Shown here piece by piece: positions 26,734 to 34,479 of a stretch of DNA of 44,125 bases. Position numbers and translations under genes: made by a program. Positions within the stretch are counted from its first letter, which is position 1. Each line of letters begins with the position of its first letter. Source of the DNA: an uncultured Selenomonadaceae bacterium (GTDB taxonomy: Bacteria > Bacillota > Negativicutes > Selenomonadales > Selenomonadaceae); assembly GCA_945873565.1 (NCBI GenBank), contig CAMCDL010000002.1, positions 1 through 44,125 on the forward strand. The letters run 5' to 3'. The notes under the pieces were generated by a model. The model was not told where the DNA came from. It worked only from the letters and a program-made list of their open reading frames with translations, and searched no databases.

Positions 26734-26767
26734 CAAAATGCACACAGCAAAAATGCACATAAGATGT

Positions 26768-26885
26768 CTTTTCTCATCCAGACTATACTGTCGGCTCCGG
26801 AATTGCACCGGATCGTGCCACAAGGGCTCGCGGGCTTTACCGCCGGTAGGGAATCTCACCCTGCCCCAAAGACTGTCTCTGTATT
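26768..26885 (-). ncRNA. FMN riboswitch (RFN element) upstream of ribD
   Basis: Minus strand: gggg-cagggtgagattccctaccggcggtaaagcccgcgagccc..gatccggtgcaattccggagccgacagtatagtctggatgagaaaag, the RFN consensus. Confidence 0.96.
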
Positions 26886-28626: not shown

Positions 28627-29193
28627 TTACAGTGTTTTCAGCCAGTTGTCCATCATTTCCCTGCCCATAGGTGTAAGAATTGACTCAGGATGGAACTGCA
28701 TTCCATTAATGTCATATTCCTTATGGCGTACTGCCATAATCATGCCACTTTCCAGCTCGGCAGTTACCTCAATGCAATCAGGAAGACCATCGCGGCTAAT
28801 AATCAAGGAATGATAGCGTCCTATCTCGACATTCTGAGGAATTCCCTCAAAGATTCCTTTGCCACAATGCTTTATAGGGGAAGTCTTGCCATGAACAATT
28901 TCACCTGCATTGACAATCATTCCGCCAAAAACCTCACCAATGGCCTGGTGGCCAAGGCAGATACCGAGAATAGGAACCTTTCCCTTCATATAATCAATAA
29001 GCTCCTCAGATATTCCGCCATCTGCCGGCACACCTGGACCAGGGGAGATTACAATGGCCTCATAGCCTCTTTTCTCAACCTCTTCACAGGTTATCATATC
29101 ATTTCTGACAACCTCGACTTCCTTACCAAGATCACATATCAGCTGATATACGTTATATGTAAAGGAGTCATAGTTATCTAAAAGCAATAACAT
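28627..29193 (-). CDS. trpG: Anthranilate synthase glutamine amidotransferase component
   Basis: LLLLDNYDSFTYNVYQ..ISPGPGVPADGG..PILGICLGHQAIGEVFGG..MQFHPESILT. Confidence 0.95.
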   Translation of the reverse strand: MLLLLDNYDSFTYNVYQLICDLGKEVEVVRNDMITCEEVEKRGYEAIVISPGPGVPADGGISEELIDYMKGKVPILGICLGHQAIGEVFGGMIVNAGEIVHGKTSPIKHCGKGIFEGIPQNVEIGRYHSLIISRDGLPDCIEVTAELESGMIMAVRHKEYDINGMQFHPESILTPMGREMMDNWLKTL

Positions 29194-30670
29194 CGTTTTC
29201 TACCTCCTCTACTACAGTGAACATAGCCTTTGATTTCTGCAGGATTTCATTGTATTCAAACTCTGCGACAGAATCATACACAATACCAGCACCAGATTGG
29301 ATGTAAGCATTATCTCCATCAATAATCATAGTACGAAGAGTAATACACATATCCATATTGCCATCAAAATCCATATAACCTACCGTACCGGAGTAGGAGC
29401 CTCTCTTAACAGGCTCCAGCTCGTGAATAATTTCCATTGCTCTAAGCTTTGGAGCACCACTTACAGTACCAGCTGGGAAGCAGGCCTTAAGTACATCCAT
29501 CGGAGTATAGCCCTTTTTCAGATCACCTACAACCTCGGATACCATGTGCATTACATGAGAGAACCGCTCAACTGCTCTCAGCTTTGTTACTCTTACAGTA
29601 CCGGGATCACTTATACGGCCGATATCATTTCTGGCAAGATCAACCAGCATTGAATGCTCTGCACACTCCTTGATATCAGCAGTCATTTCCTTTTCCAGAG
29701 CCATATCCTCGGCCTCGCTGGTGCCACGGCGCCTTGTACCTGCAATCGGATAAGTATATACATATTTTCCAGCCACCTTTACCAGCATCTCTGGTGAAGC
29801 AGCCACAAATTTCTTTTTACCAAAGTTCAGATAAAACATATATGGAGAAGGGTTTACCTGACGCAGACGGCGATAATAAAGGAAAGCCGGCTTGGTCAGC
29901 TTTTCCCTGAACTGCCGGGATGGCACCACCTGGAAAATATCACCAGAAATAATATAATCCTTGCACTTTTGGATAGCTGCCCGGAAATCCTCAGGCATCT
30001 TGCCATATTTCTTAAGAAAATCTACCTTTTCCTTTCTAGGCTTGGACTTAAGATTATGCTCAGGAACTGGTCCGCAAAGCTTATTAATCTGTTCTGATAC
30101 CCTTTCCTCAACATCGCTATATATCTGATCAAGATCATCATCAGTATTGGTCTCAGCCAGCACAATCAGCTGAGAAGCATTTTTCTGCTGATCAAATATC
30201 ATCAATGTGCGGCAGATCATGAACTGACCCAAAAGCTCATCATCAGCTACTTCCTGGCCACGGATACGATCAAATACAGAAGCTATCTCATAATTGAAAT
30301 AGCCTACTGCACCGCCATTTGCCAAAGGAAGATTTATATTGCCCATGGCACTCTTGAATTTATTCAGATAGGTATTCATGGAGGTAACAGGATCTCCATT
30401 AAATGCCCGCATTTTGTCATTCTCCTGTACCAGCAGCTTGTCCTTATAAATCTGCAGCATAATAAATGGATCTGCACCAATGAAGGAATAACGGCCAAAT
30501 TTCTGATGAGCATCAACAGATTCTAGCAGAAAGCCCTTATCATCATTTACCAGCTTATAAAAAGCTGAAACAGGAGTATCAAGGTCCGTAGACACATTGG
30601 CCGAAACAGCTACCAGTGTAGCATTTTTAGCCAGCTCCTTGAATTCCTCTCTTGATGGTGTGAGTTTCAT
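29174..30670 (-). CDS. trpE: Anthranilate synthase component I
   Basis: GDIFQVVPSRQF..YPIAGTRRRG..LVDLARNDIGRISDPGTVRV..FPAGTVSGAPKLRAMEII; start at MKLTPSR (30670) fits RBS. Confidence 0.95.
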   Translation of the reverse strand: MKLTPSREEFKELAKNATLVAVSANVSTDLDTPVSAFYKLVNDDKGFLLESVDAHQKFGRYSFIGADPFIMLQIYKDKLLVQENDKMRAFNGDPVTSMNTYLNKFKSAMGNINLPLANGGAVGYFNYEIASVFDRIRGQEVADDELLGQFMICRTLMIFDQQKNASQLIVLAETNTDDDLDQIYSDVEERVSEQINKLCGPVPEHNLKSKPRKEKVDFLKKYGKMPEDFRAAIQKCKDYIISGDIFQVVPSRQFREKLTKPAFLYYRRLRQVNPSPYMFYLNFGKKKFVAASPEMLVKVAGKYVYTYPIAGTRRRGTSEAEDMALEKEMTADIKECAEHSMLVDLARNDIGRISDPGTVRVTKLRAVERFSHVMHMVSEVVGDLKKGYTPMDVLKACFPAGTVSGAPKLRAMEIIHELEPVKRGSYSGTVGYMDFDGNMDMCITLRTMIIDGDNAYIQSGAGIVYDSVAEFEYNEILQKSKAMFTVVEEVENDVIAFR

Positions 30671-30681
30671 AAGCATCCCCC

Positions 30682-31467
30682 TTATTTATCCAGAGCAATT
30701 CTGATACTGGAAATCAGCTCACAGGCCTCTCCAAGCTTTCCGTCCATAATAAGCTTTACCACCGCAGAACCAACAATTACAGCATCTGAATTTTTTGCAG
30801 CGTCTACTGCAGCCTCTGGAGAACCGACACCGAAGCCTACAGCACATGGAGTGCTGGTCTGCTGCTTTACTCGCTCAATAACTTTGTTTATAGGAGAATA
30901 ATCAATCTTTCTTACACCAGTTACACCGTTAATTGATACACAATAAATAAAGCCATCCGCGCTGGTGCAGGTCTCGGAAATACGATTGTCAGTAGTACCT
31001 GGGGTTACAAACTCAACCAGGCTCAGTCCCTGCTGGCTGCAGGCCTTCTTCATATCACCAGACTCCTCATGAGGTACATCAGGAATTATAAGACCATCCA
31101 TGCCAGCCTCCTTGGCATCTGCTACAAATTTCTCAAAACCATAATTCAGCATATTATTAATATATCCCATGCCTACCAGCGGGATTTCAGAAACCTTGCG
31201 TATCTCCCTTACAATATCCAGAACCTTTGGCAGGGTCATACCCTTTTTGATTGCCTGGTAGGAAGCAGCCTGAATAACTGGACCATCTGCCATAGGATCA
31301 GAGAAGGGAATACCTATCTCAATAATATCTGCACCAGCCTTTTCAGCCTCCAGAACAGCCTTTAGTGTGCCAGCAGCATCAGGCAGACCAGCAGTAATAT
31401 AGATAACCAGGCCCTTCTTGCCTGCAGCCTTTAACTCGTTGAATTTATTATCAATGCGATTCATCAT
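30682..31467 (-). CDS. trpA: Tryptophan synthase alpha chain
   Basis: [48 protein letters not shown]. Confidence 0.96.
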
Positions 31468-32651
31468 TCAATCTCCTCTCCCAATACCTTTGCTACCTGC
31501 TGAACATCCTTATCTCCACGGCCGGAAAGGGTAACTACTACTACCTGGTCAGGAGTTGTCTGTGGCATCAGCTTCTCAAGATATGCCAATGCGTGTGAGC
31601 TCTCTACTGCTGGAATAATACCCTCCAGACGGCTGAGGAGCTGGAAGGCATCAAGTGCCTCCTTATCATCAATGCCAACATACTTTACAACACCCTGCTC
31701 GTGGAACATTGCATGCTCAGGTCCAACGCCTGGATAATCCAAGCCAGCTGAAATGGAGTATACCTCAATAACCTGTCCATCATCATCCTGAGCAAGGTAG
31801 CTATATGCACCGTGCAGAACGCCTGGACGGCTTGCAGGATTGGAAAGTGTCTGGGCATTATCACCAGCTGCTGGACCACGTCCTGCAGCCTCAACACCAA
31901 ATTTCTTAACCTGAGTATCATTTCTCCAATCATGGAAGGTACCGATGGCATTGGAGCCACCACCTACGCAGGCAATAAGATAATCCAGACGACCTCCGGT
32001 TTCCTTTTTAAGCTGCTGACGGATTTCTCTTCCTATACATGCTTGAAAATCACGAACCATAGTAGGATATGGATGAGGTCCTACAGCAGAACCGATAATG
32101 TAATGAGTATCATCAATGTGAGCTGCCCAATAACGTATTGCCTCGCTTGTAGCATCCTTAAGAGTAGCGGTACCAGTGGTAACAGGAATAACCTTGGTAC
32201 CAAGCAGCTTCATCTTGAATACATTAAGCTTCTGACGCTCAATATCAACTGCACCCATAAATACATGGCACTCCATGCCGAACAGAGCTGCTACAGTTGC
32301 GGTTGCTACACCATGCTGGCCTGCACCGGTTTCAGCAATTATACGTTTCTTGCCCATACGCTTAGCCAGAAGTACCTGACCTAAAGCATTATTAATCTTA
32401 TGTGCACCAGTATGCAGCAGGTCCTCGCGCTTCAGATATATCTTTGCGCCGCCATAATGCTTTGTGAGCTGCTCTGCATAGTACAGAAGAGTCGGACGTC
32501 CAGCATACTGTGTGTAATACTTGTTGAGCTCAGCAATAAAATCAGGATCCTCCTTATATTTTTCATAGGCTGCCTCAAGCTCAGTCAGCACTGGCATTAC
32601 GATTTCTGGTACATACTGTCCGCCATATTTTCCAAATCTACCCTTTGACAT
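31464..32651 (-). CDS. trpB: Tryptophan synthase beta chain
   Basis: [53 protein letters not shown]. Confidence 0.97.
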
Positions 32652-32670
32652 TTTTAATTCCTCCTAAATA

Positions 32671-33441
32671 TTACAGCTCTGCAAAAGCTCTTGTCTGTTT
32701 TTCTACATCAGGGGCTGTTGAAAGCCCCTCTCCAACTAATATGCCATCAAGGCCAGCATCACGAAGCAGCTTTGCTTCCTCTACAGTATGAATTCCGCTT
32801 TCGCTTATCAGCTTGCGGCTCCTATCTGCATATGGCAGCAGGTCTATCGTATTCTGTATTGTAGTCTTGAAAAGCTTAAGGTTACGATTATTAATTCCAA
32901 TAAACTGTCCAGGTGTAGCCAGAGCCTTTTCCATATCCTCCTGATCATGAACCTCAATCAGGGCATCCAGCCCCAGGCTTCTGGTAACATCATAGTATTC
33001 CTTCAGCTGAGTATCAGTAAGTATCCTGGCTATAAGAAGTACTGCATCTGCCTTCAGCATACTAGCTTCATAAATCTGATACTCGTCAATGATAAAATCC
33101 TTTCTGAGCACTGGCAGATTAACCAGCTTCTTAACCATCGGTATATCCTCATTCCGCCCAAGAAAGTGAGGATCTGTGTGAACTGACAGCATCTTTGCTC
33201 CGCTGTTTTCGTACATTCTGGCCAGGTCAGCAACTGAATAGGGATGACCGAAATTACCCTTGGATGGAGACTGCAGCTTACACTCTGCAATCAGGCTCCA
33301 TTTATTCTTGCTGAATACGTCCTCCATAGCAAATCTGCCGATATTTACTTGCTTTTTAAGCTTAGCCAGTGGAAGATCAAGCCTTGCCCTGTCAACTATA
33401 TCCTTTTTCTTGGCGACTATCTCCGCCAGCATATCTTTCAT
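32671..33441 (-). CDS. trpC: Indole-3-glycerol phosphate synthase
   Basis: LIAECKLQSPSKGNF..LSVHTDPHFLGR..LRKDFIIDEYQIYEA..GINNRNLKLF; start MKDMLAEI (33441) fits ggggga RBS. Confidence 0.94.
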   Translation of the reverse strand: MKDMLAEIVAKKKDIVDRARLDLPLAKLKKQVNIGRFAMEDVFSKNKWSLIAECKLQSPSKGNFGHPYSVADLARMYENSGAKMLSVHTDPHFLGRNEDIPMVKKLVNLPVLRKDFIIDEYQIYEASMLKADAVLLIARILTDTQLKEYYDVTRSLGLDALIEVHDQEDMEKALATPGQFIGINNRNLKLFKTTIQNTIDLLPYADRSRKLISESGIHTVEEAKLLRDAGLDGILVGEGLSTAPDVEKQTRAFAEL

Positions 33442-33453
33442 ATTATCCCCCAT

Positions 33454-34065
33454 TTATTGTTTTACTGCTTTAATAAATTCCTTTATCAGCTTCGGTGACT
33501 TATTTCCTTCTATTTCCATGGAACCTGAAGCATCTATGGCATACGGGTGAAAAAGCTCTATGGCCTCTCTTACATTCTGGCTATTGATGCCACCAGCAAT
33601 TATATATCGCTTCTTCAGCTTACATATTTTCTCGGCAGCTGTACGCCAGGCGAAAGATACTCCGCTCCCTCCAACCGTATTCCTGCTGTAGCTATCTATA
33701 AGCACCAGCTCTGCCGGATAAGCCTCAGCTGCCTCCAGCAAGAAATCATCACCATATCTAAAGGCCTTTATTACTGGCCTGTTGCAGCTAAGGGCATATT
33801 CTGCCGGCTCATGACCATGAAGCTGTATCATATCCAGCCCGCAAAACTCAGCCAGCCGATTCACCTCATCTATGGGCTGATCCACAAAAACCCCTACCTT
33901 TATAAGGTCCGGCACTGAAGAACATATTTCCTTTACCTGCTCTGGACTTATATATCTCCTGAACCTGGCATCCATTATAAAACCGATGTAATCAGCTCCA
34001 TCAGCTACAGCCTTCGCTGCTTCTATATCTCTGATACCGCATATCTTCAGTTTTATTACTACCAT
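33454..34065 (-). CDS. trpF: Phosphoribosylanthranilate isomerase
   Basis: LKICGIRDIEAAKAVADGADYIGFI..KVGVFVDQP..VQLHGHEP-like MIQLHGHEPAEY..AGGINSQNV. Confidence 0.93.
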   Translation of the reverse strand: MVVIKLKICGIRDIEAAKAVADGADYIGFIMDARFRRYISPEQVKEICSSVPDLIKVGVFVDQPIDEVNRLAEFCGLDMIQLHGHEPAEYALSCNRPVIKAFRYGDDFLLEAAEAYPAELVLIDSYSRNTVGGSGVSFAWRTAAEKICKLKKRYIIAGGINSQNVREAIELFHPYAIDASGSMEIEGNKSPKLIKEFIKAVKQ

Positions 34066-34079
34066 CTCCCAATAAAAAA

Positions 34080-34440
34080 GACCATCTCACTCCAATACAG
34101 CAGGCTATTATCCATGCTATATATTGGGGCGAAATGGTTTCCGCTGTGCCACCCACATTCAGTGTTTATGGTAAATAAAAAAGGTATTTCGTCTCTAAAG
34201 GGACGAAATACCTCGTTGTGCCACCCAATAAACACCCTTTCAGTACGGGAAATTACTCCGATACCTAAGCCATATAACGGTGGCAACCGTTCCAGCCTAC
34301 TAAAACTCATTCGGTGGACTCTCATGGGACCATTCACCTGACGCTTAACACTGATCATCACACCACCCTGTAAGGGTCATCAGCTCGCTGAGATAAGTAT
34401 GACAGGCTACTATTTCCCAATCAAAGATTTGTCATGTTTT
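34080..34440 (-). ncRNA. T-box leader with two T-box/terminator modules, upstream of the trp operon
   Basis: Minus strand: agcgagctgatgacc..ggtgtgatgatcag..agtaggctggaacggt (Stem I / Stem III-like), T-box1 gggtggcacaacgag (about 34213-34227) with terminator 34176-34213, T-box2 gggtggcacagcgg (about 34141-34154) with terminator about 34075-34138. Confidence 0.88.
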
Positions 34441-34450
34441 AATTTACTAA

Positions 34451-34479
34451 AGTATAAAACCTCAAAAGTGTCTTGTCAA
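34451..34479 (-). promoter_or_regulatory. Promoter of trp T-box leader
   Basis: TTGACA (34474-34479) - 17 nt - TATACT (34451-34456). Confidence 0.8.

Follow-up and report, generated by a model that had tools for sequence, protein, structure and literature searches.

Introduction

T-box leaders with a "duplicated terminator-antiterminator" are said to have been described as a structural class by Vitreschak et al. in 2008. Like the one analysed here, such leaders reportedly have one Stem I followed by two antiterminator/terminator units. The architecture of one sensor and two modules is, thus, not new, and the sequence-only reading that preceded this work was right to doubt the novelty of the class. 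It is, in any case, little studied, and the part that may be new is a Stem III strand shared by both modules.

The leader lies in a stretch of 44,125 nucleotides (the window) from an uncultured Selenomonadaceae bacterium (GenBank assembly GCA_945873565.1, contig CAMCDL010000002.1), and it is read on the minus strand. With the tRNA-Trp T-boxes covered by the Rfam family RF00230 it shares Stem I, the UGG specifier, Stem II, the F-box, Stem III, the T-box with its overlapping terminator and the trp genes downstream, but it differs from them in the insertion of a first module in the Stem III loop, which drags its score below the Rfam cut-off. Tandem complete trp T-boxes (Morales and Merino 2025, PMC12452182) likewise impose serial checks for the same ligand on the same operon; in them each unit has its own sensor, whereas our leader has a single sensor part and no Stem I before its second T-box.

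A T-box review lists tandem T-boxes among the open topics of the field (PMC7583486). For tandem riboswitches with pseudo-cooperative or cooperative aptamers, the sections of the review considered here (PMC9481103) indicate that two serial platforms should steepen the response, as would be expected for this leader. Within those sections, and in PMC12452182, multiple platforms are assigned to multiple aptamers, whereas here one aptamer precedes several platforms.

Organization of the trp leader

The leader of trpF-trpC-trpB-trpA-trpE-trpG consists of a promoter-like site, a single Stem I, a single Stem II/IIA-B and, downstream, two modules, each with a T-box, an antiterminator and a terminator (Table 1). 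The spacing from module to module is 72 nt, and 59 nt separate the two T-box motifs. It is a T-box of the tRNA-Trp type, with the specifier, UGGC bulges, mutually exclusive antiterminators and terminators and, in module 2, a Stem III with its AA. The exclusion follows from the overlap of antiterminator and terminator, which is seen in each module both in the sequence and in the folds; folded alone, the antiterminators reach -5.2 (module 1) and -8.6 kcal/mol (module 2). In module 1, the T-box, both antiterminator helices and the terminator are intact and fully overlapping. The AA flank precedes T-box 2 only, and T-box 1 has neither this flank nor a canonical Stem III of its own.

Table 1. Features of the trp leader and its operon (window coordinates)
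Feature	Position	Strand	Basis
Promoter-like site TTGACA-17-TATACT, directly 5′ of the leader	34451-34479	-	11/12 consensus positions
Single Stem I, including an AGTA-type motif in the specifier loop, the AG-bulge region and the distal loop	34320-34433	-	RF00230 alignment
UGG (Trp) specifier codon in GAATGGTCCC	34330-34332	-	Sequence and RF00230 alignment; host tRNA-Trp anticodon CCA
Stem II (S-turn AGTA / GAA) and Stem IIA/B with F-box CCGTTA	34275-34319	-	RF00230 alignment; names per PMC7583486
Conserved hairpin GGUAUCGGAGUAAUUUCCCGUACU between F-box and Stem III	34242-34265	-	Fold; similar hairpin in trp leaders of relatives
Stem III 5′ strand GUGUUUAU, abutting T-box 1	34228-34235	-	RF00230 alignment; covariation
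T-box 1 GGGTGGCACAACG, bulge UGGC for tRNA GCCA	34214-34226	-	Sequence; RF00230
Antiterminator 1: A1 GGG/CCC, bulge UGGCACA, A2 ACGA/UCGU	34200-34226	-	Sequence; fold; RF00230
Terminator 1 stem AGGUAUUUCGUC/GACGAAAUACCU and U tract, overlapping antiterminator 1	34177-34214	-	Fold, -17.6 kcal/mol (34214-34181)
Stem III 3′ strand AUAAACAC, then AA of the Stem III flank (34159-34158)	34162-34169	-	RF00230; covariation
T-box 2 GGGTGGCACAGCG, bulge UGGC	34142-34154	-	Sequence; RF00230
Antiterminator 2: A1 GGG/CCC, bulge UGGCACA, A2 GCG/CGC	34126-34154	-	RF00230; fold
Terminator 2 long stem ACCAUUUCGCCCCAAU.../...AUUGGAGUGAGAUGGU and U6, overlapping antiterminator 2	34074-34138	-	Fold, -27.7 kcal/mol (34138-34081)
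trpF, first gene of the operon, phosphoribosylanthranilate isomerase	33454-34065	-	Pfam PRAI 7.3e-43
trpC, trpB, trpA, trpE, trpG	28627-33453	-	ORFs; Pfam IGPS, PALP, Chorismate_bind, GATase; trpA named from sequence

Regarding the ligand, the UGG specifier and the assignment to tRNA-Trp that had been made from the letters alone hold in the RF00230 alignment and agree with the tRNA-Trp of the host, which has a CCA anticodon and ends in ...CCCCUGCCA, i.e., G73-CCA; with this end, G73 pairs with the C of the UGGC bulge in both modules. By contrast, the segment AGTAGG..ACGGT, previously taken for Stem III, corresponds in the same alignment to Stem II (the S-turn AGTA) and Stem IIA/B (the F-box CCGTTA), and the real Stem III, which is split around module 1, had been overlooked. 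The promoter proposed by the same reading is indeed matched by a site that adjoins the leader, but the match alone is not significant, as a single one was found in the region and shuffled sequences yield 3.4.

The hairpin GGUAUCGGAGUAAUUUCCCGUACU is an extra element, and it is present in the trp leaders of the family that were inspected. The order of the operon is F-C-B-A-E-G (28627-34065), where trpA is the ORF between trpB and trpE and was assigned by reading its sequence. trpD is found elsewhere, at the very start of another contig (G000:C107:25-954); since that contig begins at the gene, the trpD leader is unreadable there. In a relative from the same genus (L124), a trpD gene lies behind the same leader.

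A single sensor part for two modules

The match of RF00230 spans the whole leader from one end to the other, from 34433 to 34122, with 85.9 bits and an E of 2.4e-19 that refers to the stretch searched. When the leader is cut after module 1, the match is still end to end (34433-34196, 81.6 bits), while module 2 without the upstream part is matched only by model positions 133-219, the last 87 of the model, with 19.4 bits. There is, therefore, no second Stem I, and the search of each half, a check proposed by the sequence-only reading, gives one Stem I that fits either module. Its main claim, a single Stem I feeding two T-box/terminator modules before trpF, is borne out by RF00230, the sequence and the folds, and so is its remark that the gap between modules is too short for another Stem I. 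Consequently, although two complete tandem T-boxes have been reported for trp operons of Bacillota (PMC12452182), that arrangement is refuted for this leader by the 59 nt between motifs and by the match of module 2 to the last part of the model alone.

The gathering cut-off of RF00230 is 93 bits, which is a database threshold and not a biological feature. With 85.9 bits the leader falls below it, as module 1 must be absorbed as an insert, and a default Rfam scan misses it; the insertion of module 1 in Stem III explains the absence of this leader from searches at the Rfam cut-off. The only element that such a scan reports in the window is an FMN riboswitch (RF00050, 113 bits, 26762-26877) upstream of a ribD-like gene.

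Distribution of single-sensor leaders with several modules

One genome per species was scanned for GGGTGGNACNNCG, a T run and a further GGGTGGNACNNCG, with the two too close for a Stem I to fit in between. The pattern was found in at least 118 stretches, mainly from Negativicutes, Clostridia and Bacilli. Among the matches listed, Negativicutes are foremost, and Clostridium, Paenibacillus, Lysinibacillus, Priestia, Alicyclobacillus, Chloroflexi and Sumerlaeota are also represented; the chained sites in the retrieved loci comprise 118 doubles, 7 triples and 2 quadruples. Rfam searches of 18 such loci returned exactly one T-box above the cut-off at the site in 10 of them and a second Stem I at the site in none of the 18 (L008 has another, separate T-box). 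Nearly all of the 36 first genes tested code for amino-acid enzymes, aminoacyl-tRNA synthetases, or transporters or binding proteins of amino-acid type. Within the family of the window the strict pattern is present in 9 of 189 genomes; as only this family represents the order in the genome collection, the order-wide scan equals the family scan. The single-sensor, double-module design is, thus, common. Public genomes contain a single sensor feeding several platforms in at least 118 stretches, while the reviews, in the sections considered, sort tandem riboswitches as if each platform had its own sensor.

These data also bear on whether the second GGGTGGCAC could have arisen by chance, or belong to a second terminator that is independent of tRNA. 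This explanation is strongly disfavoured and, in our opinion, very improbable: RF00230 prefers module 2 to module 1 (85.9 versus 81.6 bits), T-box 2 is invariant in the leaders of the family and at least 118 stretches, most of them preceding amino-acid genes, carry the pattern. The position that RF00230 gives to module 2, with which the fold agrees, places the second motif in an antiterminator.

Three or four modules behind one Stem I were seen in Lysinibacillus, Paenibacillus, Priestia and others (L107:420-597, the minus strand of L119, L114, L059, L016, L070, L074, L027 and L106), with a module spacing of about 86-93 nt; triples and quadruples, too, are found ahead of amino-acid genes. In the examples from Bacilli, each later T-box follows a near-identical Stem III 3′ strand (UCUUCAC-like).

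Stem III in the trp clade

Stem III is an indispensable part of the discriminator that senses aminoacylation, with the motif 5′-RRRxG-Stem III-AA-3′ (PMC7583486; also PMC7778990). In the window, RF00230 pairs GUGUUUAU (34235-34228) with AUAAACAC (34169-34162) as the stem that precedes the antiterminator, so that module 1 becomes an insertion within the loop of this stem. In 15 trp leaders of the family, 90.9% of the cells of this stem are paired, and seven of its eight pairs have changed on both sides. Its covariation score is 0.700, compared with 0.228 ± 0.058 in shuffles (0/500 reached it) and at most 0.127 when the strands are slid; the manual placement of the arms in this test biases it towards the structure. 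When the alignment was left to MAFFT, without such a bias, 14 of the 15 rows fitted one register, which scores 0.357, and the other slides score 0.163 or less; the pair count is poor in the window's own register because the row of the window is shifted by one column, and the neighbouring register fits the other 14. A set of aligned arms with longer flanks was discarded, as MAFFT gapped the arm of the window.

These results suggest that, in the trp clade, module 1 sits inside the Stem III loop, and that both modules share one Stem III 5′ strand, with the 3′ strand before T-box 2 pairing back to the strand before T-box 1. Given that Stem III is essential for tRNA sensing, a shared strand would explain how the second module could work without a second sensor. 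If true, the shared strand makes a specific prediction, which can be checked by compensatory mutations.

Stem III beyond the trp clade

In a first test with 76 loci, the pairing of each strand with its own partner was stronger than with swapped ones (z -9.4). Three loci (L033, L080 and L089) were set aside because they are not convincing T-boxes. Over 73 non-redundant loci with double modules, pairing between the strand that precedes T-box 2 and the region ahead of T-box 1 reaches -14.5 kcal/mol, versus -10.7 kcal/mol in dinucleotide shuffles, energies being compared without loop costs. Own pairing beats the dinucleotide shuffles in 65 of the 73 loci (p 6e-12) and also beats GC-matched swaps (p 2e-10), and three displaced control segments gave no pairing signal in the 73 loci. 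Energy was used as the measure because own and swapped pairs differ only modestly in the length of the longest uninterrupted helix (8.2 versus 7.0 bp). In the double-module loci, the AA that flanks Stem III recurs upstream of both T-boxes, at -5/-4. The linker that leads to T-box 2, with a median length of 19 nt, forms no local hairpin beyond what shuffles form (p 0.17).

Two trivial sources of this complementarity were considered. GC bias was ruled out by the shuffles and the GC-matched swaps in the 73 loci, and recent duplication by the divergence of the strands upstream of the T-boxes, which are only 36% identical.

A broader possibility is that the modules carry out two independent serial checks, with a newly captured tRNA or with free tRNA ends, and that no strands are exchanged, so that the complementarity of Stem III would be a by-product of module duplication. 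Each module is indeed intact in itself according to the folds, and the usual treatment of tandem riboswitches is as units that act independently (PMC9481103; PMC12452182). However, the strands upstream of the two T-boxes are not copies of each other (identity of 0.36 versus 0.26 for random partners, with 75% or more in 1 of 73 loci), and the loop of the first hairpin is a further pairing partner of the second strand (3.5 versus 2.1 bp). Moreover, covariation is observed in the trp clade, whose module 1 lacks its own Stem III 3′ strand, and a review states that tRNA is not bound appreciably by an antiterminator that has no Stem III (PMC7583486). We consequently regard independent checks as unlikely.

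Conservation of the two modules

The fourth base of the UGGN bulge agrees between modules in 67 of 73 loci, when 43.1 would be expected, and differs in the other 6, as if one and the same tRNA were read by both. Helix A2 also keeps its first base pair, in 70 of 73 first modules and in 71 of 73 second modules; this pair is A-U, G-C or G-U and never A-C.

The two modules do not drift equally in the family of the window, in which 30 trpF loci were examined. Four of these loci have a single T-box, and the others include strict doubles. T-box 2 is canonical throughout. By contrast, in nine leaders from a sister genus (L167-L172 and L174-L176), T-box 1 is replaced by CCAGTGGC or CGAGTGGC, with UGGC and terminator 1 kept and the A1 helix apparently compensated by eye (CGAG/CUCG). 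In two others (L185 and L187), T-box 1 has a 2-nt deletion (GGGTGGCTGCG), and the surrounding Stem III is a helix of 11-12 bp, perfect in L185. As module 1 is degenerate in some leaders and module 2 is canonical in all, the former drifts more than the latter. Constrained folds of antiterminator 1 in relatives mostly returned the terminator and were uninformative on the antiterminator. The T-box 1 variants CCAGTGGC and CGAGTGGC escape consensus searches.

Given this drift, module 1 might be a decaying duplicate, with tRNA sensed by module 2 only and terminator 1 merely lowering expression. Such decay would fit the degenerate T-box 1 of the sister genera, next to a T-box 2 that is canonical in all, and the missing AA flank of T-box 1 in the window. 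Nevertheless, T-box 1, the antiterminator helices and terminator 1 of the window are intact and fully overlapping, the sister genera keep UGGC and terminator 1 and seem to compensate A1, and a strong terminator that could not be relieved would shut the operon off. Decay of module 1 is, hence, quite improbable. Still, module 1 has no AA flank or canonical Stem III of its own, and RF00230 pairs Stem III poorly for it; its sensing may, therefore, be weaker.

Proposed mechanism

We consider it rather likely that the leader combines one decoding part with two serial discriminator/terminator modules, and that the operon would be transcribed only if both checks are passed. In our model, an uncharged tRNA-Trp bound by Stem I would first pair its GCCA with the UGGC of T-box 1, stabilizing antiterminator 1, and the polymerase would then pass terminator 1. 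Since the Stem III 3′ strand lies beyond this terminator, it exists only after read-through. Once made, AUAAACAC would pair with GUGUUUAU, before T-box 1, forming Stem III around module 1. With respect to Stem III, T-box 2 would now have the position that a lone T-box usually occupies, and the tRNA end would be retested at terminator 2. A single tRNA would, in this order of events, which we infer, serve both checks, with an exchange of Stem III strands between them.

A more general form of this model is that modules share a single Stem III 5′ strand and that the 3′ strand of each new module displaces the earlier pairing and re-docks the same tRNA bound to Stem I. Through such an exchange of strands, one sensor would, thus, control from two to four termination decisions in succession, a proposal that we hold to be evenly balanced between right and wrong.

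As for its consequences, the two read-through probabilities would multiply, with less leak and a steeper response as the expected outcome; a sharper or two-step response is, hence, plausible.

Finally, an extension of Stem III in which GGUGG pairs with UUACC over the UGG of T-box 1 would free the tRNA end from module 1. In the fold of the window's leader, UUACC (34171-34175) can pair with the GGUGG of T-box 1 (34221-34225), which would extend Stem III and mask the UGG that binds the tRNA. The same extension is possible in G115 and G116, and it is visible only in some relatives.
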